From: Actinomyces urogenitalis DSM 15434
GTDB lineage: Bacteria; Actinomycetota; Actinomycetes; Actinomycetales; Actinomycetaceae
Direction: 5' to 3'
Assembly: GCF_000159035.1 (NCBI RefSeq)
Contig: NZ_DS999574.1
Coordinates: 1,022,923 to 1,086,922 of the forward strand
DNA length: 64,000 bases
Part shown: piece after piece, positions 36,751 through 51,982 of the stretch
Layout: the number at the start of each line of letters is the position of its first letter
Numbering within the stretch: the first letter of the stretch is position 1
Made by a program: the position numbers and the translations under genes
Notes under the pieces: generated by a model
Databases searched by the model: none
What the model saw: the letters and a program-made list of their open reading frames with translations, nothing else
What the model was told of the DNA's origin: nothing

Positions 36751-39700
36751 TTCGCATCTCCGCTCACGCGGGGTCGACTTTGCGGTCACCCACCGGCGGC
36801 GGCGCTTGCCGGGCTCATCCCCGCTCACGCGGGGTCGACTCCAGGGCGAGGATCTAGAGGCCTCGGCTCTGGGGCTCATCCCCGCTCACGCGGGGTCGAC
36901 CTGGCCGCTACTGGACCGCCCGAGGCAAGGGCGCGGCTCATCCCCGCTCACGCGGGGTCGACGCGCAGGTGGCCTCGACCTGGTACCAGCCCGCCGGCTC
37001 ATCCCCGCTCACGCGGGGTCGACGGGGCAACTCCCGGACTGAGGCCGTGCGGAAACGGCTCATCCCCGCTCACGCGGGGTCGACTCGAGTTTCATCGCCT
37101 GGATACATGCCAGGACGGGCTCATCCCCGCTCACGCGGGGTCGACTCCGGGGTCGTGGCGGGGGTGGTGGGCTCATCCCCGCTCACGCGGGGTCGACGGA
37201 CCCAGCAACCGGATCTGGTGGTGCATGCTGGGCTCATCCCCGCTCACGCGGGGTCGACGATGACGTGGATATCGCCAGCACGACCGCCGCGGGCTCATCC
37301 CCGCTCACGCGGGGTCGACCTGTGGGCTGACGACGGCGGCACCACCCGCGCCGGCTCATCCCCGCTCACGCGGGGTCGACGTGCCGTGGGCTTACACGAT
37401 GGAGCAGGCCCGGGGCTCATCCCCGCTCACGCGGGGTCGACGAGATTGTCGAGGCCTACGACCTGCCTGAGGACGGCTCATCCCCGCTCACGCGGGGTCG
37501 ACCACCTTTCCTGTGCTCAGTCAGGGGGCGGAGCACGGCTCATCCCCGCTCACGCGGGGTCGACCTCGGACCACCGTGTCAAGGGTGAGCATTTTGGGGC
37601 TCATCCCCGCTCACGCGGGGTCGACATAAAGGTGCTTAGCAACAAAAGCGCCTTCGAGGGCTCATCCCCGCTCACGCGGGGTCGACGACTGCTACGGGGA
37701 CGTAGTGGCCAAGGGTGCGGGCTCATCCCCGCTCACGCGGGGTCGACCTCACCACTTCCTAGGGGCCAGTTCTTTTCCTGGGCTCATCCCCGCTCACGCG
37801 GGGTCGACTGGTATTCAGTGGACGGCTTACGGAAAGCCCGGGGCTCATCCCCGCTCACGCGGGGTCGACTAAGTACGGCAAGAATTATGTCGATGGTCGG
37901 CAGGCTCATCCCCGCTCACGCGGGGTCGACCTGTCACTGCCTCGGGGATGGACCTTCGTCCGGGGCTCATCCCCGCTCACGCGGGGTCGACCTGGCCGCC
38001 ATTAGCCAGCAGCGCAAGAATCGGGGCTCATCCCCGCTCACGCGGGGTCGACCCAAGGCCGGGGGTCTGGACTGGAAGAGCCTGCGGCTCATCCCCGCTC
38101 ACGCGGGGTCGACCTAATGGCGGCCAGGAAGTCGAGGCTAATACCCGGCTCATCCCCGCTCACGCGGGGTCGACTGCTGATCCGAGGTCTACCGCCGGGG
38201 GCTGGCCGGCTCATCCCCGCTCACGCGGGGTCGACAAGTCGCCACTTCGACTTCACGCCCTCGGGACCGGCTCATCCCCGCTCACGCGGGGTCGACCAAA
38301 GCCCGGCACGGAATCAGCGGGATCATCCGGGCTCATCCCCGCTCACGCGGGGTCGACCCCCGGTACCACACAAAAAATGGCCGAAAGGCCGGCTCATCCC
38401 CGCTCACGCGGGGTCGACTTGCGGCCAGTTTCAGAGACCGCGCGGATCGTGGGCTCATCCCCGCTCACGCGGGGTCGACCGGCGCCGGACGGGGCCAGGA
38501 TACTGGCGCTGAGGCTCATCCCCGCTCACGCGGGGTCGACCGCGGCACCGTGGCAGAGGTGCGCCGGGGTTGGCGGCTCATCCCCGCTCACGCGGGGTCG
38601 ACGTGGTCACCATCTAGACCCGACCGCGGAAGTTGGGCTCATCCCCGCTCACGCGGGGTCGACGTTTATAAAGGTTTTCAGGGGTCAGGCAAGACGGGCT
38701 CATCCCCGCTCACGCGGGGTCGACCCAAGACGCGGGAGGGGCAGAAACAGCACCGCGGGCTCATCCCCGCTCACGCGGGGTCGACTTCACCGGTCTACGC
38801 AGATGAGTACGCTGATCCGGCTCATCCCCGCTCACGCGGGGTCGACCAGGGGCCCGATCTTCTCCCCGATCCCGGACAGGGCTCATCCCCGCTCACGCGG
38901 GGTCGACTCTGCGCGCCTCCCACGATGTTGGGGGGCGCGGGGCTCATCCCCGCTCACGCGGGGTCGACACCGCCGCCGCCCTGGACCTGGCAGGGACCGT
39001 GGGCTCATCCCCGCTCACGCGGGGTCGACATGAGCACTTTGGTCGCCTAGTCCGCGCTCCAGGGCTCATCCCCGCTCACGCGGGGTCGACGCTTGAACTC
39101 AACGAGGCGGGCACGCGCTTCCGGGCTCATCCCCGCTCACGCGGGGTCGACTCTCCAATCACGCGGATCGGTCTCGAACCCAACGGCTCATCCCCGCTCA
39201 CGCGGGGTCGACGCTCGCTCGCGTGCGGTGCTGCGTGATGTGCATGGCTCATCCCCGCTCACGCGGGGTCGACTGCGCAGGACCCGTAGGTTGCGGGAGT
39301 TCTCCTGGGCTCATCCCCGCTCACGCGGGGTCGACATAAGCCGCACCGACAGGCGTGACGGCCCGGCGGGCTCATCCCCGCTCACGCGGGGTCGACGTCG
39401 CCACCCAGCACCCCAACTACCCCGGCGAGGGCTCATCCCCGCTCACGCGGGGTCGACACGATCCGTCAGGCCCGCGCCGCTGGCTGCCAGGGCTCATCCC
39501 CGCTCACGCGGGGTCGACCCGACTCCTCGACAGACTTCAAGTTCACAGCGCGGCTCATCCCCGCTCACGCGGGGTCGACCCACTTCCCTACAGTGCTGGC
39601 ACCTTTGACACCGGCTCATCCCCGCTCACGCGGGGTCGACAGGAACGCCGGATATGCGACGACTCTTCTTCCCGGCTCATCCCCGCTCACGCGGGGTCGA

Positions 39701-42637
39701 CTAGGGGGCGACCGGCAGCGTCGTGCCGGTGACCGGCTCATCCCCGCTCACGCGGGGTCGACGCAGGCTTGCGGAAAGTTGGCCAGTCGATACGCAGGCT
39801 CATCCCCGCTCACGCGGGGTCGACGTGCCGTAGCACCAGTCCGTGGGCCATGCGAACGGCTCATCCCCGCTCACGCGGGGTCGACCCCGGGCGGCCCCCG
39901 GTGATGCCTCCGTACTCGGGCTCATCCCCGCTCACGCGGGGTCGACTGTGTGCCCGACAGGGGGCGGTCGTAGTCGTCGGGCTCATCCCCGCTCACGCGG
40001 GGTCGACTCGTCAGGCGGGACAGACAGCGGCGGCATCCTCGGGCTCATCCCCGCTCACGCGGGGTCGACTCGTCAGGCGGGACAGACAGCGGCGGCATCC
40101 TCGGGCTCATCCCCGCTCACGCGGGGTCGACGATCTCCTCATAGGTGGGGGCAACAAGACGCAGGGCTCATCCCCGCTCACGCGGGGTCGACTCCCGCTG
40201 CTTCCGTGGCAGCAAGAGACCTTGAGGCTCATCCCCGCTCACGCGGGGTCGACCCCGCCGGCATCCTGTCCTCCCCGTCCGCCACCGGCTCATCCCCGCT
40301 CACGCGGGGTCGACTCAGGGGCCCGATCTTCTCCCCGATCCCGGACAGGGCTCATCCCCGCTCACGCGGGGTCGACCACGGTACGGATAGACCGGCTCAC
40401 TGGTCCGGGGGCTCATCCCCGCTCACGCGGGGTCGACGGCTGGCACCCTCATGTCCATGTGCTGCTGTTCGGCTCATCCCCGCTCACGCGGGGTCGACCA
40501 TCGTCATCTCAAGACCGATGTCTGAAGCGCCGGCTCATCCCCGCTCACGCGGGGTCGACATGGCCCGTTATGCGGTGATGGGCGTGAAGTGGGGCTCATC
40601 CCCGCTCACGCGGGGTCGACGAGGGCCTGGCCGACGTGCGCCGCGATCTGGCGGGCTCATCCCCGCTCACGCGGGGTCGACTATCCGCCGAAGGTGCGGA
40701 TGGGGGTGGTGACGGGCTCATCCCCGCTCACGCGGGGTCGACAAATACGCGACGTTATCGCGGATAGCGAGGAGGGGCTCATCCCCGCTCACGCGGGGTC
40801 GACGACGTCGGGGATACGGGCCTTGAAGAACTGTCCGGGCTCATCCCCGCTCACGCGGGGTCGACCAAGAGTTACGCGAGTTAAGCCTCGCCCATGCCGG
40901 CTCATCCCCGCTCACGCGGGGTCGACGAAACACTCACCTACGACAAATTAGAGGGCGCGGGCTCATCCCCGCTCACGCGGGGTCGACCCCTTAGTCTGAA
41001 AAGCCTGGTCATTGAGGCCAGGCTCATTCCCGCTCACGCGGGGTCGACGTCAGGGCTGCCAGGACCTTGAAGGTGTCCTTGGGCTCATCCCCGCTCACGC
41101 GGGGTCGACTACGCCACCACACGCAACCCCGCCAACCCCACGGGCTCATCCCCGCTCACGCGGGGTCGACTCGTCGTGGGAGTCGAGTGAGGGCGTGCGG
41201 TCCGGCTCATCCCCGCTCACGCGGGGTCGACATAAAGGTGCTTAGCAACAAAAGCGCCTTCGAGGGCTCATCCCCGCTCACGCGGGGTCGACGTCGTACG
41301 CGGTATATCGAGCTTCTGCGCTGCCGGCTCATCCCCGCTCACGCGGGGTCGACATCTTCCGCCCCAACAACAAGGGTGCCCTCGCCGGCTCATCCCCGCT
41401 CACGCGGGGTCGACCCGCCAATCCCTCGGGTCTACCCCATCAAGTACGGCTCATCCCCGCTCACGCGGGGTCGACACCGTCATGCCACGCGGCGAGTTCA
41501 TCCGCGCAGGCTCATCCCCGCTCACGCGGGGTCGACTACCTGCGCCCCATCGAGGACGCCATGACCGCGGGCTCATCCCCGCTCACGCGGGGTCGACGTC
41601 GAGGGCCTGGGCGTTGTCGTCCATGGCGCGGGCTCATCCCCGCTCACGCGGGGTCGACGAGACCCCGGACGTGACGGCGGAGCGGATGCCGGGCTCATCC
41701 CCGCTCACGCGGGGTCGACTGCGCGAGGTCACCGTCGGCACTGAGGAGGTTGGGCTCATCCCCGCTCACGCGGGGTCGACGTCGTGGGCACGTTCGTCGC
41801 AGCCTGGCAGGCCGGCTCATCCCCGCTCACGCGGGGTCGACCACGCCAACTCCTCCCTAATAACGTGTGCGGGCGGCTCATCCCCGCTCACGCGGGGTCG
41901 ACATCACCGCCGTCGTCTCCTTCGACACGCAGGCGGGCTCATCCCCGCTCACGCGGGGTCGACGGTCGAATCATCTAAAGGATGAAGCGGGCGTTGGGCT
42001 CATCCCCGCTCACGCGGGGTCGACGGCCGCGACCTCGCCACCAACTTCGCCGCCTTCGGCTCATCCCCGCTCACGCGGGGTCGACCGTCGGAGAGGATAC
42101 GGATAGACAGAATCGCTGGGCTCATCCCCGCTCACGCGGGGTCGACCCGCAGGGTCCGGCCCATTGCGCGCTGTGTCGCGGCTCATCCCCGCTCACGCGG
42201 GGTCGACGCACGGCGACCATGGGTGGCACGTCCACGCTCACGGCTCATCCCCGCTCACGCGGGGTCGACTGTCATGGTTTCCTCATGAGCACAGCACCCG
42301 CCCGGCTCATCCCCGCTCACGCGGGGTCGACCGCCGTGATCAACGCGCTCATGGCCGATTCCGCGGCTCATCCCCGCTCACGCGGGGTCGACGTCACCAA
42401 CCCGTTCAACCCCGCCACCCGGGGCGGCTCATCCCCGCTCACGCGGGGTCGACTCATCGGTCATCTCAGAAATGCCCGCAGCATCCGGCTCATCCCCGCT
42501 CACGCGGGGTCGACCTCGAAGGGTGCGCGCGACCCAGGCCTACCCGACGGCTCATCCCCGCTCACGCGGGGTCGACGCGAAGGCGGCGTAGTAGTACACG
42601 CTGAAGGCGGGCTCATCCCCGCTCACGCGGGGTCGAC
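36751..42637 (-). CRISPR. Type I-E CRISPR array, 97 repeats and 96 spacers
   Basis: I counted 97 copies of a 28-bp repeat (plus strand begins GGCTCATCCCC, ends GGGGTCGAC; stem CCCCGC/GCGGGG). Spacing is 61 bp (33-nt spacers) in 83 intervals and 62 bp in 12. One spacer is only 24 nt (37146-37169). The leftmost repeat (36751-36778) has four mismatches (positions 1, 2, 4 and 9), the usual mark of the trailer end. One internal repeat (41021-41048) has a C-to-T change at position 9. In the minus-strand direction the repeat has the normal I-E form starting GTCGACCCCGC and ending GGGATGAGCC. crRNAs are therefore made from the minus strand, starting beside cas2. Three spacers occur twice. Confidence 0.98.
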
Positions 42638-42692: not shown

Positions 42693-43085
42693 TTACTGCT
42701 GACCTAGAGAGCGTTCTGCGGAGTTCCGAAAACGCCGTCGTCGTGCTGCGATCGACCAGGACTCCTTGGCCGGCTTGACTGCTCCGGGTATGGCTGTCCA
42801 GCCCTCAGCGGCACGATAGGACGAACGCATCACCGTGCACCCCTCGATATCGATAGGTTCACGCTCATGCCCCAACGAGGCTACGGCGAAACGCTGTTCT
42901 GAACGGACCGACCAGATCAGGAGAGCGCGTCCGTCCCCGATGTAGGTCTGGACCATCTCCCACAGGTGCTCGCGCACTCGCGCGGACAACCGCCCGACGA
43001 ATACTCCTGGAGAGACCTCCAGGAGCCATCTGGTCACGGCGCCGCGAAGGGAGGCTGGAGCGGCCGAGAGAATCAGGACGACCAC
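42693..43085 (-). CDS. cas2: Type I-E CRISPR adaptation protein Cas2
   Basis: Dimeric scaffold of the Cas1-Cas2 spacer integrase. The I-E signature is at the N-terminus: VVLILSAAPASLRGAVTRWLLEVSPGVFVGRL is spread over the first 33 residues. It is 130 residues from GTG 43085, compared with about 95-120 for most Cas2e. The extra residues form a basic C-terminal tail (ARRRRFRNSAERSLGQQ) encoded next to the array leader. The start overlaps cas1 by 13 bp. It is the last gene of the cas operon. Confidence 0.94.
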   Translation of the reverse strand: MVVLILSAAPASLRGAVTRWLLEVSPGVFVGRLSARVREHLWEMVQTYIGDGRALLIWSVRSEQRFAVASLGHEREPIDIEGCTVMRSSYRAAEGWTAIPGAVKPAKESWSIAARRRRFRNSAERSLGQQ

Positions 43086-44017
43086 GATGCATCCATCCCG
43101 ATCGCATAATTGGCTCCACCTGCGACGGACTGCCGTTGGTAGTCCCACAGCGAGACGACATTGACGGTGAGATCCTCAGTATGTTCTTGGCCGAGAAGCC
43201 GATAGATGTCCGAGACGGAACGCTCAATGACATGCCGCTCGAAGATCTGGTCCCGCACACGACGACGCGTTGTTGCCGAAAGATCTTCCATACCTTCAGC
43301 AACAACGTCGAACGCCACGGGAATCGTCACCTCTGCCTTGTACAGGTCAGCAATGTCGTAGACGAACGATCGTTCGTGGCCGGTGTGGACAAATCCAAGG
43401 CCGGGAGAGCATCCGAGGGCCACGATGACCGCGTGCACGACTCCGTACAGGGCCGCGTGTGCCGCAGAAAGCGCCTGGTTTATGGGATCAGAGGCTTCGA
43501 AGTCGTCCGGCCGGTAATCACGGCGTGTCCACGGAACGCCGGTGCGACGGGAATGACTCCGGTAAATCTCGCGAACGCGTGCGCCTTCCTTTCCGCGAAG
43601 CTGCTGCATTGTCATGCGACTGACATCTTCATTCGCGAATCGCATGCAATACATCTCGCGAGCCACACGAAGCCGCTTCTGTGGCGAGGAAACTCTTGCA
43701 GCTTGCTCGAGAAGAAGACGAGTCGACGTAGCCAGGGAACGTCCGTGCGCGTAATAACGCACACCTCGCTCACCGACCCACACGGCAGTGGTACCGCACT
43801 CTCCGAGGAGCATCATGGCTTGGTGACTGACTGATGTTCCAGGACCGAAGAGGATCGAGGTCAGCGAGGCAGCCGGGAGCCGGATGATCCCCTTGTCATC
43901 CCTCGCCGTCACCGCGCCGTCCTCACGATGGACGACGCAGTGCTCCAGATAGAGAAATGACAACCGGTCCTGGACGCGGGGCAATGCGGAGACCGGAGCA
44001 GGAAGCACCCGCACCAT
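43073..44017 (-). CDS. cas1: Type I-E CRISPR integrase Cas1
   Basis: Catalytic subunit of spacer integration, 314 residues from ATG 44017. Metal ligands correspond to E. coli Glu141, His208 and Asp221: Glu144 in RGKEGARVRE, His211 in GLGFVHTGHERSF, and Asp221/Asp224 in VYDIADLYK. The N-terminal beta domain includes ASLTSILFGPGTSVSHQA. The intact active site implies that the array can still grow. It starts 5 bp after the cas6e stop. Confidence 0.96.
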   Translation of the reverse strand: MVRVLPAPVSALPRVQDRLSFLYLEHCVVHREDGAVTARDDKGIIRLPAASLTSILFGPGTSVSHQAMMLLGECGTTAVWVGERGVRYYAHGRSLATSTRLLLEQAARVSSPQKRLRVAREMYCMRFANEDVSRMTMQQLRGKEGARVREIYRSHSRRTGVPWTRRDYRPDDFEASDPINQALSAAHAALYGVVHAVIVALGCSPGLGFVHTGHERSFVYDIADLYKAEVTIPVAFDVVAEGMEDLSATTRRRVRDQIFERHVIERSVSDIYRLLGQEHTEDLTVNVVSLWDYQRQSVAGGANYAIGMDASWSS

Positions 44018-44022
44018 GGTGG

Positions 44023-44703
44023 TTACCGCACTTTCGCGAGTGTCATGAGACCACAACCGTAGGCTTTGGAACGGCCAATGCCGGATATGAGCGCGGTACG
44101 CAGGAGATCAGGATCAGTGACCTGCAGAAGGCCTTCAAAGACCGTTCGGTTAATCGTCACGCGGTCCCGTCGTCCCTGTTCTGGATTCGACCGACCAAAC
44201 ACAGGCCGTGCCCGACGAACCACCGTCAGCGAGGACCCCACTGACTCCGCAGCCCCGTTAACTGGAAGCATGCGGAAACCATGTGCCGCCGCTCGCGAGA
44301 GCAGCCACTGGCGTTGCTGCTCGAGCGTGACGTGCCCTTGTCGTTTGCCTCGAACACCGATGCCCTGCGAAATCGCTCGGGAAGGGTTGGCGGCTAGGCG
44401 GAACGCCCACACCTGATGCTCAGTCAGCTTGCTCAGGAATGGCTCATAATCAAGGGTTCGGGCCTGCGCCCCGATGCGAGCGGCCTCGTCGAGGAACTGT
44501 GAGCAGTCGGGCCTTGACGGGGTCAGGAGGTACAAGGACATCGTCGAGGATGCCTCATCGACGCGCCACAATACGCGGCCTGGTCCGCTGGAGGCAGTTG
44601 CTCCGGCAGCCTTGAGAACGACGGCGTGCATCACCTGAGGGGAGCCGAGGTACCGGCGTGCCTGTCTCCTACTCGGGTCGAGCTCGATCTTCGTCAGGAA
44701 CAC
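44023..44703 (-). CDS. cas6e: crRNA endoribonuclease Cas6e (CasE/Cse3)
   Basis: Cleaves pre-crRNA at the repeat hairpin base and stays as the head of Cascade. 226 residues. The catalytic histidine is His26 (GSPQVMHAVVL), and the C-terminal glycine-rich loop is GIGRSKAYGCGLMTLA. The start MFLTKIELDP is canonical for the family. It overlaps cas5 by 10 bp. Confidence 0.95.
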   Translation of the reverse strand: MFLTKIELDPSRRQARRYLGSPQVMHAVVLKAAGATASSGPGRVLWRVDEASSTMSLYLLTPSRPDCSQFLDEAARIGAQARTLDYEPFLSKLTEHQVWAFRLAANPSRAISQGIGVRGKRQGHVTLEQQRQWLLSRAAAHGFRMLPVNGAAESVGSSLTVVRRARPVFGRSNPEQGRRDRVTINRTVFEGLLQVTDPDLLRTALISGIGRSKAYGCGLMTLAKVR

Positions 44704-45410
44704 CTTCCCGCCTCCTCGATATCAGACATTGGGTCGTGGCTGTCGGGCCGATCGCTGTCACCGACAGGCACGAAGAGCCTCTCGACTTCCCGAGCTTGGT
44801 AGTCACGTCGTCGCGGATCGAAGGAGACGGGGGAGTCGAGCGTTGTGTATCCGGAGCCTCGCTCATCTGGAGCTAGAGAGGCAGCATCGATGACGATCTC
44901 GGCGCGGAAGCTGTTGTCTTGCCGTAGGCGGAACCAATCTGCGGCCTGCCACGGCTCATCCGTGAGTGCCTGCAGTAGAGAGGCATGCCGGATACCAAGA
45001 GACAACGGTTGACTTGGCGGACAGGAGCGCCGCCCCAGGTAGAGAGGAAACACGGGGTGACGAACAGCTACGTCAAGGCCCTCGAGCAGAGTCTTCTCTC
45101 CCTCGATGGCCGCGAGATAGACGGCGTCGGCAAGGTAGTACCGCTCAGACAGCGGCATGCTTTGCTTGCCGTCCAGCGTTCGAGCGGTGTGGAAGTCACG
45201 CAGCACGGTGCCGGGTTGGTCCTTGCGGACTCCGAAACGTAGCGACAACAAGTCCTCAATCGGATCAGTCCGACGCCGTCCGACGGCGGCAGCCAGCATT
45301 CCGATGACGCCGCTCTTGGTGGGAGCGAGTTCAGTCCCACGAACAGTGAATCTGGACTTGACTCCCCACGACTGCAGAGGTCCAGCAAGTCGAAGGAGGA
45401 GGACAGACAT
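44694..45410 (-). CDS. cas5e: Cascade subunit Cas5e (CasD)
   Basis: Binds the 5' handle of the crRNA in Cascade. 238 residues starting MSVLLLRLAGPLQSWG, the universal Cas5e N-terminus, followed by RFTVRGTELAPTKSGVIGML. The ATG at 45410 shares a base with the cas7 stop (TGATG), so a longer upstream frame start is rejected. The C-terminus after FVPVGDS is a short Asp/Ser-rich tail. Confidence 0.95.
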   Translation of the reverse strand: MSVLLLRLAGPLQSWGVKSRFTVRGTELAPTKSGVIGMLAAAVGRRRTDPIEDLLSLRFGVRKDQPGTVLRDFHTARTLDGKQSMPLSERYYLADAVYLAAIEGEKTLLEGLDVAVRHPVFPLYLGRRSCPPSQPLSLGIRHASLLQALTDEPWQAADWFRLRQDNSFRAEIVIDAASLAPDERGSGYTTLDSPVSFDPRRRDYQAREVERLFVPVGDSDRPDSHDPMSDIEEAGRCS

Positions 45411-46534
45411 CAGCTGTGCTCCGGGGTAAGTCCGTGAGCAGCAGCCTCGCACACCTTTCCAGGCAGGTCAGCGAAGGTGATGCGCTCGCCGAGGCTTGCG
45501 AGCTCTGGGACATCAGCGAGGGAGACCACGAACGAGGCCTGAGGCTTCAGCCCAAAGTTCTCCTCGATCGTGTGCTCGTACCTAGCCAGGGCCTCGACTG
45601 AGCGAGTCAGGAAGCCGTCGGACTCGGTGGTGCGGACGGGCTTCTCGAAGGCACCGACGAGTGAGACCGGCTGGTCGTCCCGCACCGAGACAACCACCGA
45701 GTCCGGCAGCGTCCTGTTGGCAAAGGTGTTCTGCTTCCCAGTGGGCATCGACAGGCAGAAGCCCTCAAGAAACACGCTCAGGGCTCGCAGAGCCGCGTCC
45801 CGGTCTCCCAGGTTCTCGACCAGCATGTCAAGGTTGACGGTCGCGTAGCGATACATCGTTGCCGAGGAGAACTCGACGGTTCCCATCATTCCAGCACCGG
45901 CGTCCTCTTCCATCGCACGTGACTTCTCGTCATCGACGGCGGTGAAGAAGTCATACTCGTTTTCTGCGGCGTGAGTCGAGATGGCGTGCGCGACCTGGCA
46001 TGCAGCATCGACGTTGAGATCGGCGTCGTCGGCGACCATTCGCCCAAACAGGGCGATATCAACCGCATGCTCTTCCTTGAAGATCTTCTTTGTCTCCTTC
46101 GGGTCGATCTTCTCACCTGCGTGAGCAGCGCGGGTAGCCATCTCGGCCAGGCGATTGATCTGACTGGTGGACAGGAAGAGAAGATAGCCAGATTCAGCGG
46201 GTGCGTCCTTCTTGCCGCGAGGTGGCGCGACCTTGATCTTGGCTGCGGAGAACACCTGCTCGGCTAGAGCGAGGGCGGAGTCGGCAAGGTCGGGAGCGAT
46301 CGCGCTGATCCGGTCTGCGAGGAGCTCAACGACTCGTTTGGTGCGGATGCCGACGTCAGTAGCATCGAGGTGCTCGTTGAAGTAGAGACGAGTGGCGCGC
46401 TTCCAGGACTGGCTCGAGACCCGCAGGCGTCGAACACCGCCGTAGAGAGCGGACTTGGGAGAGCCCGAGTCATCTCGGTTGACGCACGAGGGCGGAAGGC
46501 TCTGAATCAGGTGGATGTCGACGAAGGTGCTCAT
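45410..46534 (-). CDS. cas7e: Cascade backbone subunit Cas7e (CasC/Cse4)
   Basis: Six copies coat the crRNA spacer in Cascade. 374 residues starting MSTFVDIHLIQSLPPSCVNRD, then GSPKSALYGGVRRLRVSSQSWKR, both conserved in Cse4. The thumb-region motif appears as ALSVFLEGFCLSMPTGKQN. The start at 46534 is one base after the cse2 stop; the frame is open further upstream but overlaps cse2. Confidence 0.96.
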   Translation of the reverse strand: MSTFVDIHLIQSLPPSCVNRDDSGSPKSALYGGVRRLRVSSQSWKRATRLYFNEHLDATDVGIRTKRVVELLADRISAIAPDLADSALALAEQVFSAAKIKVAPPRGKKDAPAESGYLLFLSTSQINRLAEMATRAAHAGEKIDPKETKKIFKEEHAVDIALFGRMVADDADLNVDAACQVAHAISTHAAENEYDFFTAVDDEKSRAMEEDAGAGMMGTVEFSSATMYRYATVNLDMLVENLGDRDAALRALSVFLEGFCLSMPTGKQNTFANRTLPDSVVVSVRDDQPVSLVGAFEKPVRTTESDGFLTRSVEALARYEHTIEENFGLKPQASFVVSLADVPELASLGERITFADLPGKVCEAAAHGLTPEHS

Positions 46535-46535
46535 A

Positions 46536-47225
46536 TCAGTGCTCCAAGGTTGAGTGGGAGTCAGTGGAATCGGTGTTGTCAGGGGTAGGGGTGTGCTCAA
46601 GGCCGGCGTACTGCCTCGCCCAGGTGAGTCGGACAGTCTTGGCGCCGTCCGCTTGTTGGAAACGAACAAGCTCGTCAGCTAGCGCTGCGTAGTCGAGTGG
46701 AATACGGCGAGCGCGCAGCTGCGAGACGAACGCCTGAAGGTGATGCGTCAGTTCGCTCGTCGTCGTCGAGGTCACGAGTGCGTTGAAACGTGCTCTGGCA
46801 GAGGACAGCTCGTCGTCAGGAGGCCCGATCAGGGTGCGGGCGGCCTGGCCGAGGCCTCGGCCAGGAACATGCATCGGTTCAGTGCGTGACTGCTGGTGGA
46901 TACCATAGAGAGTCATCGCCGTGTGAACAGCGATTTCTTCTCTCGTCGGAGCGTCGCCGTGTCCGGGTGGCACCGGGCACTCGGTGAGCGCCCACACCTC
47001 GGGCAACGCACCAGGGGGCATGCGGGCCGCCCGACGCAAGGCAGCGAGCTCTGCTCTGCCGGAGGACTCTCCGCCGCAGTAGCGCTGCTGGAGGCCTCGT
47101 GGTCCGCCCAGCCGCCTTTCGACCAGGGAACCTTCCCGGCGCAGTGGTCGGCGGCGCCGTGTGGCGGAATCCGACGGGCCGCTGGTGCTCTCGGAGGGCT
47201 GAGGGTCTGAGATGGGTGCTGTCAT
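46536..47225 (-). CDS. cse2: Cascade small subunit Cse2 (CasB)
   Basis: 229 residues, all-helical. It binds the non-target strand and locks the R-loop in Cascade. The core pattern GRAELAALRRAARMPPGALPEVW is typical, as is DYAALADELVRFQ near the C-terminus. The N-terminal 35 residues are Ser/Arg-rich and probably disordered. The ATG overlaps the cse1 stop (ATGA at 47222-47225). Confidence 0.93.
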   Translation of the reverse strand: MTAPISDPQPSESTSGPSDSATRRRRPLRREGSLVERRLGGPRGLQQRYCGGESSGRAELAALRRAARMPPGALPEVWALTECPVPPGHGDAPTREEIAVHTAMTLYGIHQQSRTEPMHVPGRGLGQAARTLIGPPDDELSSARARFNALVTSTTTSELTHHLQAFVSQLRARRIPLDYAALADELVRFQQADGAKTVRLTWARQYAGLEHTPTPDNTDSTDSHSTLEH

Positions 47226-48877
47226 TGATCTGCCCTTTCATCGTCATGGGCTGCGGGGATCTGGGAGCCTGGCCTCGGCAGGACTTCTGCGAGCTTTCTG
47301 CGGAAGAAGAACAGCGCTCGACCGACGTCCATGCGGGATGTTCCGTCCCCGCGGCCTGTGAATGCCGTGCTGGGTGCGTTCTGTGCGAGATGCTCAGCCT
47401 GGCGATGTGCCTCCGAGCGAAGGACCTCCCGCCATTGCTCGGCAACGGACTCGGGGTCCGCGTCTGCGATGTCAGCGAGCCACCGGGGGAAGCGCTCATC
47501 AATGGCTTGGTAGAACTGCGCTCCAGCCCGTTGACGGGCGGCAGAACTAGTATCGGGGCTTCCGCCAGCAGCACGGTCCAGGTTGGCCGCGAGGTTTCTC
47601 AGTGTTCCCGCCGCCTGCTCAGTGACCTCAATAGCGTCGCTCACCAGGGTCAGGAGCCGTGTGTTGTCCCGGCCGAGCAGGGCCGAGGGCACATGAAGAG
47701 TGTCCTCGACGAGCTCAGTAATCACGGCCTCCTGGGCGCCGTATTCCATACCGACGGCGTGGATTGGTAGAAGCTTGCGAGGCGGAATGACGCGCTGATA
47801 CATGAGCCGCTGATAGAACGTGATCACTGCCGGCGGGAGGAAGCGACTGACCTGGCCCCCGGCTTTGGTCGACACCATCGGGCTGAGATGCGGGACGACC
47901 GTCGGGAGACCACGCCACATCGCGCGATCCGTTGGGAGCTTGCGAGGCATGTAGACCGTCGCCTTGGCCTTCTGACTCTGGGGCTCTGAGTAGCGCCAGG
48001 CTGTGAGGGGCTCGACGTGCTGCCGGTTTTGTGGCGTCGCCTTGTCTCCATTGCCGAGGAACAGGGAGGTAACCTCCTCCTTGCCGTGGAGAAGAACGCG
48101 TCGGGTTTGCCACGTGTAGCAGGACACTGGTCCAGTGGGCTGCTTTGACGCGGACCCTCCCGGTCCGTCTGCGGGGCGCTCCCACGGCGGTAGGTCTCGC
48201 GACAGGTCGACTTCCTGCAGCCCTTCGACGCAGTTGCACACCACGGTGTTGAGCAAGAGCGTCTGCTCGAGGTTGTCGCCAGCCAGCGTGATCGTCCCGA
48301 TCTGTCCCGTCCAACCTGGTCCGATGGGATATCCCTTCCCATTTCTTACCTGAGGGTCCCCAACGGCGCCAGAACGGATTCCTGAAGGATCGAAAGCATG
48401 GACATGGATGAGCCAACGTGCTGCCTCGGCCCAGGTCATCTGGGACAAGCCCTCACCCATCCGGGTGGTGAAGAACGGATGCCCGTTCGGGATGTCTGCG
48501 ATTAATGACTCTAGGCCGGAGCTCTTCCCTGAAGCAGTGTGGATACCGGCAACCTGGAAGAACGGCTGCTCGGGATCGCGCAGATCGAAGCGACTGCGGA
48601 ACCGCTCCAGGTAGGTCGATGCGTCCTGTCCGAGGCTTCCTGGCGAGCTCCAGTATTCTCTCCAGACCTCGAGATCCTCTGGTCCGTCCATCGTCCTGTG
48701 GCAGATCGCCAGGAGTAGCCGAAGGATGGCGATGTTCTGGCTGGCGATCTCGCCGTGAATGCCCTCGATCTGTGTAGCGTCGCGAAACAGCGTCAGCAGC
48801 GATACCTCTTCTGACTCACCGCTCAGCCAGGTCACGCGGATCCAGGGTTCGTCAAGAAGATTGAAGCTCGGTGTCAT
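47222..48877 (-). CDS. cse1: Cascade large subunit Cse1 (CasA/Cas8e)
   Basis: PAM-recognising subunit that recruits Cas3. 551 residues. The N-terminus FNLLDEPWIRVTWLSGE, then SLLTLFRDATQIEGIHGE and LRLLLAICHRTMDGPED, are conserved family blocks. The zinc-like cysteines of some relatives are not obvious. The C-terminal four-helix bundle includes LADIADADPESVAEQWREVL. It overlaps cas3 by 4 bp at its start. Confidence 0.95.
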   Translation of the reverse strand: MTPSFNLLDEPWIRVTWLSGESEEVSLLTLFRDATQIEGIHGEIASQNIAILRLLLAICHRTMDGPEDLEVWREYWSSPGSLGQDASTYLERFRSRFDLRDPEQPFFQVAGIHTASGKSSGLESLIADIPNGHPFFTTRMGEGLSQMTWAEAARWLIHVHAFDPSGIRSGAVGDPQVRNGKGYPIGPGWTGQIGTITLAGDNLEQTLLLNTVVCNCVEGLQEVDLSRDLPPWERPADGPGGSASKQPTGPVSCYTWQTRRVLLHGKEEVTSLFLGNGDKATPQNRQHVEPLTAWRYSEPQSQKAKATVYMPRKLPTDRAMWRGLPTVVPHLSPMVSTKAGGQVSRFLPPAVITFYQRLMYQRVIPPRKLLPIHAVGMEYGAQEAVITELVEDTLHVPSALLGRDNTRLLTLVSDAIEVTEQAAGTLRNLAANLDRAAGGSPDTSSAARQRAGAQFYQAIDERFPRWLADIADADPESVAEQWREVLRSEAHRQAEHLAQNAPSTAFTGRGDGTSRMDVGRALFFFRRKLAEVLPRPGSQIPAAHDDERADQ

Positions 48878-51819
48878 CGGGGTGAGACCTCCTTGAGACC
48901 CGTAGACGAGGAGTACTCGAGCGTGATGCCTGCCAGGGTGGCTCGGCCGTGTTCCAGGGGGAGGACTAGCTGGCCAGCAAGCTCAGGAATACTCTGCCAG
49001 GCAGGTACGAGCCGTGTCTCGAGTTCGGAGATCACGGTGTCGATCACGCGAGGGTTGGAGAGCCGAGGAGGTAGCCGTACCGCGGACATCGCCATAGCTC
49101 GTGCGACTTTGGGCTCAGGAGCGTCGTCGTCAGGAATCGGGAGAGCCGGTGCTCCTGCCGTCGGCAGCGTGTAGAGACCGACCTGCCCGCCCTGCCGTCG
49201 AGCGTCGATGAGGATGACCTCGAGAGAGTCCTCGCCGTCGCGTACCTGGGCACGCCCCTTCTCATCATTGTCTAAGGCTGCGGAATGCAGCCATCCGATC
49301 AGCGACGATGCGCAGGACGCGCGTGGAGGTGATGACAGGAGGAAGGTCCGTGCGGCATCGGTCTTCGCTCTCTTGAGCTCGTCAGCCTTGCTCGCGGCTT
49401 CCGCGAGCGCTTTGTCCCAGGCTGGAGGAGTGGATACCAGCTCTCCGTAGACACCCTCGATCAGGGCGTGCACGTCCTGCGGGATGCGTACTTCTCCTGG
49501 TCCTTCCATGACCTTGTGCAGCACGGCAGCGCTGCGCAGCAGGTCCAGGGAGCCGTAGATCGCCTGAGCGCCGCCCTCCAAGGAGGGGCTCTCCGATGTC
49601 GGCGTCGGCAGCCAGTCAACGAGGCAGGTCGCCTCTGTCAGGCTTGCGGGTCGAGGTCGTTCATGGCGATGAAGACGTCCCATGCGCTGGAGGATCAGAT
49701 CGATCGGCGCCAGATCGGTGATGAGCAGGTCGAAGTCGACGTCGAGAGACTGCTCGACGACCTGCGTTGCTACGACGACGGCGCGATGGGGACGGTCAGG
49801 GCCGCTGCGGGGAGGGCCGAACTTCTTCAGCAGCTCGTCGTCCTTGGCGAGCCTGTCACCGACCGTGAACCGTGCGTGGTGGACGCTCACCTCCTCTCCG
49901 AGCTCTGAGCGCAGCAGCTCGTAGGTCTCCTGCGCACGGCGCACTGTGTTCCTGACGACGAGTGCGCACCCGCCGTCGGACAGTGCCATACGCAGGGTGG
50001 GAACGAGCTGGTCCCGTCCGAGCCGATCAACGTGCACGCGGGCCGTACGACCGGCCGATGAGGAACCGACGACGCGGGATCCTGCCAGTCCGGTGGAGAC
50101 CAGACAGGGGAAGGGCGTGCTCAGAGGATCTGGGGACGGGTGTCGTGGCACCCGCTGACCGTCGGCTAGGGCAAGCCCGTGCCGGTAAGCGGAGGTGAGC
50201 TCGGCGCAGCGCGCCTGCGAGAGTGTCGCCGAGAGCAGGATGACAGGTACCCCGTAAGCGGCGAGCCACGTCAGAGCGCGGTCAAGGTAGACGTTCATGT
50301 GTGTGGAGTAGGAGTGGACCTCGTCCACGATGACCACTTTGCGGGAGAGACCAAGATGACGCAGTGCCAGGTGTGGGGACCGCATCGCGCCGAAAAGGAG
50401 GTGATCAACGGTGGTGACGACGAAGTCAGCCAGCATGGCCTTCTTGCGTCCGTTAAACCACGCGCCGATCGCGATATCTGCGCGCCTGCCGTGGGAGCTG
50501 TCGAGCTCGCGACCGGCGCGCGCCTCGATCTCGTCCCAGCCGATCTGACAGGGGTGGGGGAGTGTCGAGTCGTCCCCACCAAGGGAACCGAGAAGCTGGC
50601 TGCGCAGCTCATATCCGCGGCGGCGGAGCTGACCTGCCTGCTTGTTCAGACGCGCACGGCCGTGAATGAGCTGGACCGCGAAGGTCGATGGAGCGCCGTC
50701 AGAGGCATATGCCTCCTCCAGGCTCTCCAACCAGGACAACTCTCGGGCGAACATGGCGTCTGTAGTGGCTTGGGTGGGAAGGGCGAAGAGCACCCCTGCA
50801 CGTCCGCTGCGCGCGGCGAGCACCTCTGCCGCCATGAGTGCAGCCTCGGTCTTCCCACCACCGGTGGAGTCCTCGATGATGAGCATGCCTGGCATGGGCA
50901 TCGTTCGGGCCATCTCGACGGCACGAGTCTGAACCTCGGTGGCCGTGGACCCTTCCGGCAGTGAGAACCGGTGTCTCAGGGTGTCGCTGACGCCAGCCTC
51001 CTCGTCCCTGGGCCTCCATGGTGCCGGAAGCTCGATTCGGGCCAGTCCTTGTGTGACGCGCTGGCGGTGTCGGTCAGGGGCAAGAAGGTCTCGGCCGTCG
51101 TCGTCGGCAGAGACAAGAGGGAAATAGTCTTCAGTGGAGGCCAGCCAGTCAGCAACGATGACCAGACCGGACAGAATGACCAGGAACGGCTGGGACCACG
51201 TGCGCTTAGACCAGTGGGCAAGTAATGAGCTGACCTCGCAGTGCTCCGTCACCAGCTCGAGCAGCTCGTTCTGGACCGTGGTCCACGTGCCGGTGCCGAT
51301 GAGCGGCTCGCGTCCCTCGCTCTCCTGCAGGCTGGCGTACGTGGGCGGGATGCCATGGTGAGCTCCGACTATGCAGGCCAGTGCCTCGGCGGACTCGAAG
51401 GACCATCCGTGAACGTTCTCCAGCCATTGCTGAAAGATGCGATGTCCGGCTAGACCGTGGGGGACTTTACGGCGCTCGAGTGGATCTACTGGGACGCGCT
51501 CGAATCCGGACTCGCACATGCGGTCGTACAGCTCAGGAACCTTGCTGGCGAACGCGGGGGAGGCCTTGCCGATGTCATGGACGCCCGAGATCCATGCGGC
51601 TAAGGCAGTGAACTCCTCAGAAGGGGACAGGCCAGATGGGGACGTGGCGAACTCGCGGTCGATGATCGAACAGATCGATGGGGAGAGCCAGTTCTTGGCG
51701 AGGTGGCGGGAGACGGCGGCCGTATCAAGAAGATGGATCGGAAGTGGAAGCCATCTTTCGCGCTCAGGGTTGTAGCCAGATTTCGCCCAGGCTGCGGCGG
51801 CAGTGCTCGACAGGTTCAT
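48874..51819 (-). CDS. cas3: CRISPR-associated nuclease/helicase Cas3 (HD + DEAD domains)
   Basis: Degrades DNA marked by Cascade. 981 residues from ATG 51819, which follows AAGGAG; the open frame before it has no site. The N-terminal HD nuclease has His29 (PLPIHLLDTA), His81-Asp82 (SGVHDIGKASPAF) and HHG at VGAHHGIPP. The SF2 helicase has Walker A STGGGKTEAAL, the DEVH box VIVDEVHSYST, SATLSQ, and a C-terminal domain with QVVEQSLDVDFDLLI and QRMGRLHRH. All catalytic motifs look intact, so interference should be functional. It is the first gene of the operon, reading away from the two diverged repeats. Confidence 0.96.
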   Translation of the reverse strand: MNLSSTAAAAWAKSGYNPERERWLPLPIHLLDTAAVSRHLAKNWLSPSICSIIDREFATSPSGLSPSEEFTALAAWISGVHDIGKASPAFASKVPELYDRMCESGFERVPVDPLERRKVPHGLAGHRIFQQWLENVHGWSFESAEALACIVGAHHGIPPTYASLQESEGREPLIGTGTWTTVQNELLELVTEHCEVSSLLAHWSKRTWSQPFLVILSGLVIVADWLASTEDYFPLVSADDDGRDLLAPDRHRQRVTQGLARIELPAPWRPRDEEAGVSDTLRHRFSLPEGSTATEVQTRAVEMARTMPMPGMLIIEDSTGGGKTEAALMAAEVLAARSGRAGVLFALPTQATTDAMFARELSWLESLEEAYASDGAPSTFAVQLIHGRARLNKQAGQLRRRGYELRSQLLGSLGGDDSTLPHPCQIGWDEIEARAGRELDSSHGRRADIAIGAWFNGRKKAMLADFVVTTVDHLLFGAMRSPHLALRHLGLSRKVVIVDEVHSYSTHMNVYLDRALTWLAAYGVPVILLSATLSQARCAELTSAYRHGLALADGQRVPRHPSPDPLSTPFPCLVSTGLAGSRVVGSSSAGRTARVHVDRLGRDQLVPTLRMALSDGGCALVVRNTVRRAQETYELLRSELGEEVSVHHARFTVGDRLAKDDELLKKFGPPRSGPDRPHRAVVVATQVVEQSLDVDFDLLITDLAPIDLILQRMGRLHRHERPRPASLTEATCLVDWLPTPTSESPSLEGGAQAIYGSLDLLRSAAVLHKVMEGPGEVRIPQDVHALIEGVYGELVSTPPAWDKALAEAASKADELKRAKTDAARTFLLSSPPRASCASSLIGWLHSAALDNDEKGRAQVRDGEDSLEVILIDARRQGGQVGLYTLPTAGAPALPIPDDDAPEPKVARAMAMSAVRLPPRLSNPRVIDTVISELETRLVPAWQSIPELAGQLVLPLEHGRATLAGITLEYSSSTGLKEVSPR

Positions 51820-51849
51820 AGGGACTCCTTCGTCGTTCGGGTGCCACGA

Positions 51850-51877
51850 TATGACCTGGCGCGAGCTGGGATGAGCC
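51850..51877 (+). repeat. Degenerate CRISPR repeat copy 1, upstream of cas3
   Basis: Read on the plus strand, 21 of 28 positions match the array repeat in its crRNA orientation, including the whole 3' part GGGATGAGCC. Where the stem differs, pairing survives with G-U wobbles: CCTGGC and GCTGGG still form six pairs around GCGA. It lies 31-58 bp upstream of the cas3 ATG, inside the probable cas promoter region, in the opposite orientation to the cas operon. Confidence 0.75.
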
Positions 51878-51899
51878 GGCATAACGTAACGGCGACACC
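51878..51899 (+). other. 22-nt spacer-like segment between degenerate repeats
   Basis: The segment starts GGCATAACGTAACGG and ends ACACC. It is shorter than any normal spacer of the array, as are the spacers of known Cas-regulating RNAs. Its target is not known; no long match was noticed elsewhere in the window. Confidence 0.45.
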
Positions 51900-51927
51900 G
51901 TTCACCCCGCGTCAGCGGGGATCTGCG
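51900..51927 (+). repeat. Degenerate CRISPR repeat copy 2
   Basis: 22 of 28 positions match the array repeat in crRNA orientation, and the CCCCGC/GCGGGG stem is perfect. The 3' terminal bases differ (ATCTGCG in place of ATGAGCC), as is common for a trailing repeat. It is directly followed by a 12-bp hairpin. Confidence 0.8.
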
Positions 51928-51964
51928 CAGGCGAGGTGCTGAGACTTCTCACCCTCGCCTGCGC
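51925..51964 (+). terminator. 12-bp hairpin following the degenerate repeats
   Basis: Arms 51925-51936 and 51953-51964, with an inner TGAG/CTCA extension, followed by TCTTGG. It lies between two divergent genes, where a terminator is not expected unless a short plus-strand RNA ends there. It also precedes the glyA -10 box, so it is not part of the riboswitch transcript. Confidence 0.65.
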
Positions 51965-51973
51965 TCTTGGACG

Positions 51974-51979
51974 TACCAT
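51974..51979 (+). promoter_or_regulatory. Likely -10 box of glyA-folD transcript
   Basis: TACCAT, seven to ten bases before the first nucleotides of the riboswitch fold. No good -35 hexamer is seen. Confidence 0.45.
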
Positions 51980-51982
51980 GGC

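Follow-up and report, generated by a model that had tools for sequence, protein, structure and literature searches.

A putative orphan creA upstream of cas3 in a type I-E CRISPR-Cas locus of Actinomyces, with candidate CreTA modules in its relatives

Introduction

CRISPR-repressed toxin modules (CreTA), in which creA is the antitoxin-RNA half, have been tested experimentally in haloarchaea, Acinetobacter and Citrobacter, according to the portions of the literature drawn on here, and the present analysis extends them, as candidates, to the type I-E systems of Actinomyces. The closest described case is the type I-E CreTA of Citrobacter rodentium. In the part of that report used here (PMC12055562), the module resembles those that we describe in Actinomyces: it belongs to a type I-E system, occupies an intergenic region adjacent to cas3, has creA opposite to a small ORF and presents a PAM-flanked, partially matching target near the ORF promoter. 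The C. rodentium ORF has 96 bp and those of Actinomyces 27-47 aa, and the same text describes toxicity as an experimental result that needs translation of the ORF. For H. hubeiense, the excerpted account has positions 1-5 and 7-11 of the CreA guide pairing with a PAM-flanked site upstream of creT (PMC8501985). Judged by titles and the first lines of abstracts, none of the papers that our literature searches retrieved describes CreTA in Actinomyces; earlier bacterial CreTA predictions exist in supplements.

The DNA analysed here is a 64-kb stretch of Actinomyces urogenitalis DSM 15434, called the window throughout. A preliminary description made from its sequence had pointed to two degenerate CRISPR repeats beside cas3 and proposed a Cre RNA that might regulate the cas operon.

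Materials and Methods

Relatives of Cas3 were sought in 149 genomes, and 30 cas3 loci, that of the window included, were cut out, oriented and scanned. One locus, L029 (G038), was cut from inside cas3, its upstream region being covered by the model search only. Unit scores refer to the array repeat GTCGACCCCGCGTGAGCGGGGATGAGCC. The guide was defined as the 20 nt from the second spacer position, and its best site was sought within 400 nt on the cas3 side, on both strands and with no demand for a PAM. A covariance model was trained on the window and nine relatives, leaving out G089; the first-look candidates scored per genome were 97 for the genus, 22 for the family and 12 for the order. Because the model scored this limited number of candidates, we rely on direct scanning of the sequence upstream of cas3, and not on the model, when we call creA absent from an array-rich genome. 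The Cas3 tree excludes G012 and G038; in it, G080, G089 and G054 form long rows of uncertain placement.

Results

The window carries on its minus strand cas3 (48874-51819; HD nuclease-helicase, 981 aa, TIGR01587 and TIGR01596 above cut-off when scanned with one extra leading codon), followed by cse1, cse2, cas7e, cas5e, cas6e, cas1e and cas2e (42693-48877), each recognised by one or more models above the curated cut-off, and by a CRISPR array of 97 repeats of 28 nt (36751-42637, 97 pattern matches, period mostly 61-62, spacers of about 33 nt). Judged by these matches, the type I-E operon beside the element is intact. The best-fitting start of cas3 is the ATG at 51819-51817, with AAGGAG ahead of it and 30 nt between the start codon and the element; a longer in-frame ORF extends to 51882. 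Given this start, the element lies upstream of the cas3 gene, between glyA and cas3, in the same place as in G019, the nearest relative, whose Cas3 is 90% identical to that of the window. The orientation opposite to cas3 that had been described for the element holds.

The element itself is on the plus strand. Its first repeat-like unit, psiR1 (51850-51877, TATGACCTGGCGCGAGCTGGGATGAGCC), matches the array repeat at 21 of 28 positions and keeps its stem through two G-U pairs, with one pair changed on both sides. A 22-nt spacer-like guide, psiS (51878-51899, GGCATAACGTAACGGCGACACC), separates it from psiR2 (51900-51927, GTTCACCCCGCGTCAGCGGGGATCTGCG), which scores 22/28 and is identical to the G019 copy. 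The coordinates, common direction, scores and wobble-kept stem given in the preliminary description agree with our recomputation. psiR1 aligns with unit 1 of nine relatives, and would yield an intact 5' handle (ATGAGCC followed by G). The 18-nt core of psiR2 is an exact fit to the pattern CCCCGCGTNAGCGGGGAT and matches the array core at 17/18; 0.70 matches to this pattern with up to three mismatches are expected by chance per 64 kb. Outside the array, the two units are the best matches to the array repeat in the whole window, where ten sites score 18/28, one 19/28, two 20/28, one 21/28 and one 22/28. The two units are neither a product of chance nor unique.

A 12-bp hairpin (51925-51964, arms 51925-51936 and 51953-51964) follows psiR2 and presumably marks the end of the RNA. 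Folding of the plus strand at 51843-51980 is better than that of 200 shuffles (z -4.5). The hairpin had been taken for a terminator; no T-run follows it, and for this reason 0 terminator sites were called. The promoter/terminator scan as a whole returned nothing.

Ten relatives have a crRNA-like gene of this kind, with two diverged repeats, next to their type I cas operon. In nine Actinomyces it lies upstream of cas3. In five of them (G019, G025, G017, G021 and G028) both units reached the 18/28 threshold of the repeat score; the other four (G022, G036, G015 and G012) have a single unit at this level, and their second unit was assigned through a search for handle, AA and seed at the same 49-nt spacing. 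The tenth, G089, is of another genus, also has the gene upstream of cas3 and was found only by a search that demanded a handle-like motif, AA and a seed match. Hairpins after unit 2 are visible by eye in the relatives too. In 16 loci without creA, the best repeat-like scores were 14-17/28.

With the covariance model, at least 11 of 49 genus genomes score above 60 bits, namely the nine relatives, the window and G040, and the rest of the matches listed have 51.8 bits at most. The family search, which includes the genus, gave at least 15 of 213 genomes at E <= 1e-8, G089 not being flagged among the matches listed, and the order search gave at least 3 of 396 evenly drawn genomes at E <= 1e-9. Across the window and nine relatives (G089 was not aligned), 93.3% of the stem cells are paired, and two-sided changes occur at 4 of 12 stem pairs, against 0.9 in shuffles; in the ungapped alignment, two pairs of helix 1 are broken in three rows.

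Presence of the gene is patchy. A Cas3 close to that of the window occurs in 27 of the 49 genus genomes, ten of which, the window included, have the element. On the Cas3 tree of 28 rows, its presence takes 7 changes, at least 5 of them forced by well-supported branches, and is not clustered beyond chance, a number as low as this arising in 94 of 500 shuffles. The preliminary description had named one pattern as evidence against a Cre RNA, loss of the repeats from close relatives whose cas operon persists. Such a pattern is seen, at least as regards cas3: the element is present in G036, and its sister on the Cas3 tree, G004, shows none upstream of cas3.

Some copies have unusual surroundings. 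In G012 (L027) the cas3 match is in three pieces, one with three in-frame stops, which may be an assembly error, and creA, target and small ORF look intact; an intact module would be expected there if repression needs Cascade and not Cas3. G040 (L043 1501-1577) has a two-unit element at a contig end, adjoining a gene that looks transposase-like by eye; this genome gave no Cas3 match, and the model matched nothing else in it at E <= 0.01. Also, G247 (L064 1501-1577) has a two-unit element with a 21-nt spacer and a strong hairpin, among genes that by eye resemble those of mobile elements and with no target seen nearby by eye.

We found that the best site of the guide lies in all ten relatives on the same strand, 55-147 nt from R1, and is preceded by AAN, so that in 10/10 the guide has a PAM-flanked seed match ahead of a second gene. 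For G089 this count is not independent, its discovery search having demanded AA; among the guides set by repeat score alone (the five pairs and G036), AAN is present in 6/6. Guide positions 1-5 match in all ten and position 6 is mismatched in seven, a position at which Cascade tolerates mismatch. Shuffled regions score as well in 0-6 of 300 trials and shuffled guides in 0-2 of 300. A spacer of the window array matches two related Microbacterium phages at 30/33, both AAC-flanked, which on sequence grounds is independent support for an AAN PAM. When every position was used as guide, seed-plus-AA matches appeared in 10 of 18 loci where creA was not found; in L007 and L013 they are inverted-repeat terminators, in L005 a close tandem copy, and the others are scattered, and no repeat-like unit was recognised by eye beside the matches in these ten loci.

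In nine of nine Actinomyces, the target is followed, toward cas3, by one SD-led ORF (SD 5/7 or better) of 27-47 aa, divergent from creA; the one of G017 has two possible starts, and G089 does not show this arrangement. TANNNT lies 13-26 nt before the target in 8 of the 9 and overlaps it in G019, although the motif is short and no control stands behind the count. By eye, several loci show hairpins ahead of cas3 that could terminate the small gene. The nine peptides share little sequence and have no credible Pfam match, three families appearing in one member each with E 0.018-0.42. Their best 18-residue hydropathy is 1.66-2.23. At a cut of 1.6, set afterwards, none of 30 comparable ORFs from the cas3 upstream regions of 19 creA-less loci (among them L029 of G038, as coding sequence) passes, nor does any of 72 in cas3 frames. 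These ORFs are possible toxins, a role suggested by length and hydrophobicity, and the relatives thus offer nine candidate hydrophobic micro-toxins.

The window itself has neither target nor toxin gene at this place. Its alignment with G019 has two blocks: one runs from glyA into the element, at 93.6% over 1465 columns, and the other begins just ahead of the cas3 start. These blocks stop on either side of a junction of 27 nt (51832-51858), which includes the first 9 nt of psiR1 and corresponds to 343 nt in G019, a net 316 bp fewer in the window. Those 343 nt hold the target, the small ORF and promoter-like sequences, and we infer a deletion or replacement of creT at the junction. The genome assembly is in 67 contigs and 93.6% complete, so that a local misassembly is possible at the element. 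psiR2 and the hairpin are nearly identical to those of G019, psiR2 itself fully so, against 20/28 for psiR1 and 8 of 22 positions for the spacer, which suggests that the cas3-side half of the element was exchanged or diverged fast. Faster wear of psiR1 than of psiR2 is described for haloarchaeal CreTA in the available part of PMC9458426, and the divergence seen here fits it. By eye, 11 nt of the window spacer resemble the creT-side region of G025.

On the cas3 side, the window guide has no site that stands out from shuffles: 296 of 300 shuffled regions and 292 of 300 shuffled guides do equally well. Genome-wide it has no match above control, AANGCATANCGTA with at most one mismatch giving 1 match and the reversed pattern 4. 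Additionally, the 70 nt before R1 of the window contain no TANNNT, a hexamer that seven of the ten relatives have 21-34 nt ahead of R1.

Discussion

The element is probably an orphan creA, the antitoxin-RNA part of a type I-E CreTA module. This reading draws on what the loci themselves display: a gene of two units, stems changed on both sides, targets flanked by a PAM, small ORFs and, in the window, the missing block. That the element is a Cre-RNA gene of a type I-E system, as first proposed, is well supported by its recurrence upstream of cas3, the two-sided stem changes and the AAN-flanked seed matches.

Transcription, Cas6e processing, repression and toxicity are steps that we infer. In the relatives, creA would be transcribed away from cas3, and Cas6e cleavage at its two worn repeats would release a short crRNA-like guide for Cascade to take up. 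The loaded complex would then bind the AAN-flanked partial match, presumably too little for interference, at a site that follows the -10-like region and precedes the start codon of the divergent small-peptide gene, keeping the peptide silent. If Cascade were lost or blocked, the peptide would be made and the cell harmed, and the cas operon would thus be kept in the genome. The window lacks the peptide gene with its target, and also the promoter-like sequences of the two genes, so that psiR1, psiS, psiR2 and the hairpin are left with no target. Lacking target and peptide gene, and probably a promoter, this orphan creA is probably a relic, most likely an unexpressed or useless one. Against this, the kept stem of psiR1 and the near-identical psiR2 and hairpin are more order than plain decay requires.

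The preliminary description raised possible autoregulation of the cas operon. This is not supported by the family, which looks like the antitoxin CreA and not like the cas regulator CreR, because the target precedes a separate small ORF in 9 of 10 relatives; the window guide, for its part, has no convincing target. A CreR in the window, whose RNA would have outlived the toxin, would still load Cascade and would repress cas3 through a weak leader site beside psiR1, seems unlikely to us. The candidate site (51835-51854, minus strand, PAM AGG at 51857-51855) matches guide positions 2-5 and 7-9, and one as good is found by 51 of 5000 shuffled guides. However, positions 1 and 6 are mismatched, the first of them counting against the site, and the PAM is AGG and not the AAN of the ten relatives. 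AGG is within the E. coli PAM list, but this list was chosen afterwards, and the lack of TANNNT in the 70 nt before psiR1 also speaks against this reading. A guide of this kind may exist in G089, where an 11-nt seed match is found some 99 nt ahead of the point at which the Cas3 match begins and no SD-led ORF follows it; this gene (L030 1178-1254) is a natural candidate for a type I-E CreR. The wider idea of an evolutionary switch from CreTA to CreR, in which a toxinless antitoxin RNA would be re-used by Cascade to repress cas3 with its guide reading the cas3 leader, is unlikely and has this one weak site in its favour.

A working antitoxin, with its toxin target elsewhere in the genome or missing through an assembly error, would agree with the stem and intact 5' handle of psiR1 and with the 93.6% completeness of the assembly. 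We consider it quite improbable, since the genome holds a single match to the guide pattern against four for the reversed control.

The notion of a decayed remnant, kept in the preliminary description as the main alternative, stands in part: the element is probably a remnant of a CreTA module. That it remains from an ordinary immune array once placed upstream of cas3 is very unlikely, even though its units do resemble a worn array repeat. With repeats at 21/28 and 22/28 and a 22-nt spacer, it departs from the near-identical repeats and spacers of about 33 nt of an immune array, those of the window array included, and both the two-sided stem changes and the recurrence in ten relatives of a two-unit gene with 21-22-nt spacer and a nearby target argue against such an origin. 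The targets beside the elements of relatives largely refute it for the family, and less so for the window taken alone.

A phage-type RNA anti-CRISPR (Racr-like) mini-array left behind by a mobile element is extremely unlikely, since the element sits between glyA and cas3 in both the window and G019 and the guides of ten relatives have cas3-side targets, against which stand short-period mini-arrays beside phage lysis-type genes within the family (G057, G062) and three- and four-repeat mini-arrays in two actinobacteriophages.

These mini-arrays are observations in their own right. In G057 (L063, L066, L067) and G062 (L065), CRISPR-like arrays with a period of about 50 nt and spacers of about 22 nt come just after phage lysis-type genes, with an endolysin match in L063 and a holin match in L065 (PHROGs); G057 has no Cas3 match. 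It is possible that these arrays are phage RNA anti-CRISPRs for type I-E. The Corynebacterium phage Dina (L070 2501-2593) and the Saccharomonospora phage PIS 136 (L071 1501-1707) contain unannotated mini-arrays of three and four I-E-like repeats respectively, and the same part of the query is matched by eleven further Corynebacterium phage records.

Returning to the orphan creA, the patchy presence of the gene and a toxinless copy beside an intact operon mean that a loss of CRISPR addiction could be watched across species.

Compared with known systems, the window element resembles CreR in being a crRNA-like RNA linked to cas genes, but CreR, in the section of the review used here (PMC12737573), targets a cas promoter and works without a toxin, whereas the window element has no convincing cas target. 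The haloarchaeal CreTA, going by the excerpts of PMC8501985 and PMC9458426, likewise has two worn repeats and a gap at position 6 of the guide pairing; it differs in being type I-B and archaeal, with a creT that sequesters a rare tRNA. The Acinetobacter CreTA, as the consulted portion of PMC10097628 presents it, also has two diverged repeats, with psiR2 closer to the array repeat than psiR1, and a PAM-flanked target followed by an SD-led mini-ORF divergent from creA, but it is of type I-F, with a 33-bp ORF and a toxin described as a small RNA. From C. rodentium, again within the part of PMC12055562 used here, the Actinomyces modules differ in place (between cas3 and casA there; before cas3, with neighbours on the glyA side, here), in PAM (ATG there, AAN in the relatives) and in toxicity, shown there and predicted in Actinomyces, the ORF being missing in the window. 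CreTA of type I-E is already known from C. rodentium, and the Actinomyces modules, as predicted from these comparisons, would extend this kind to Actinomyces.
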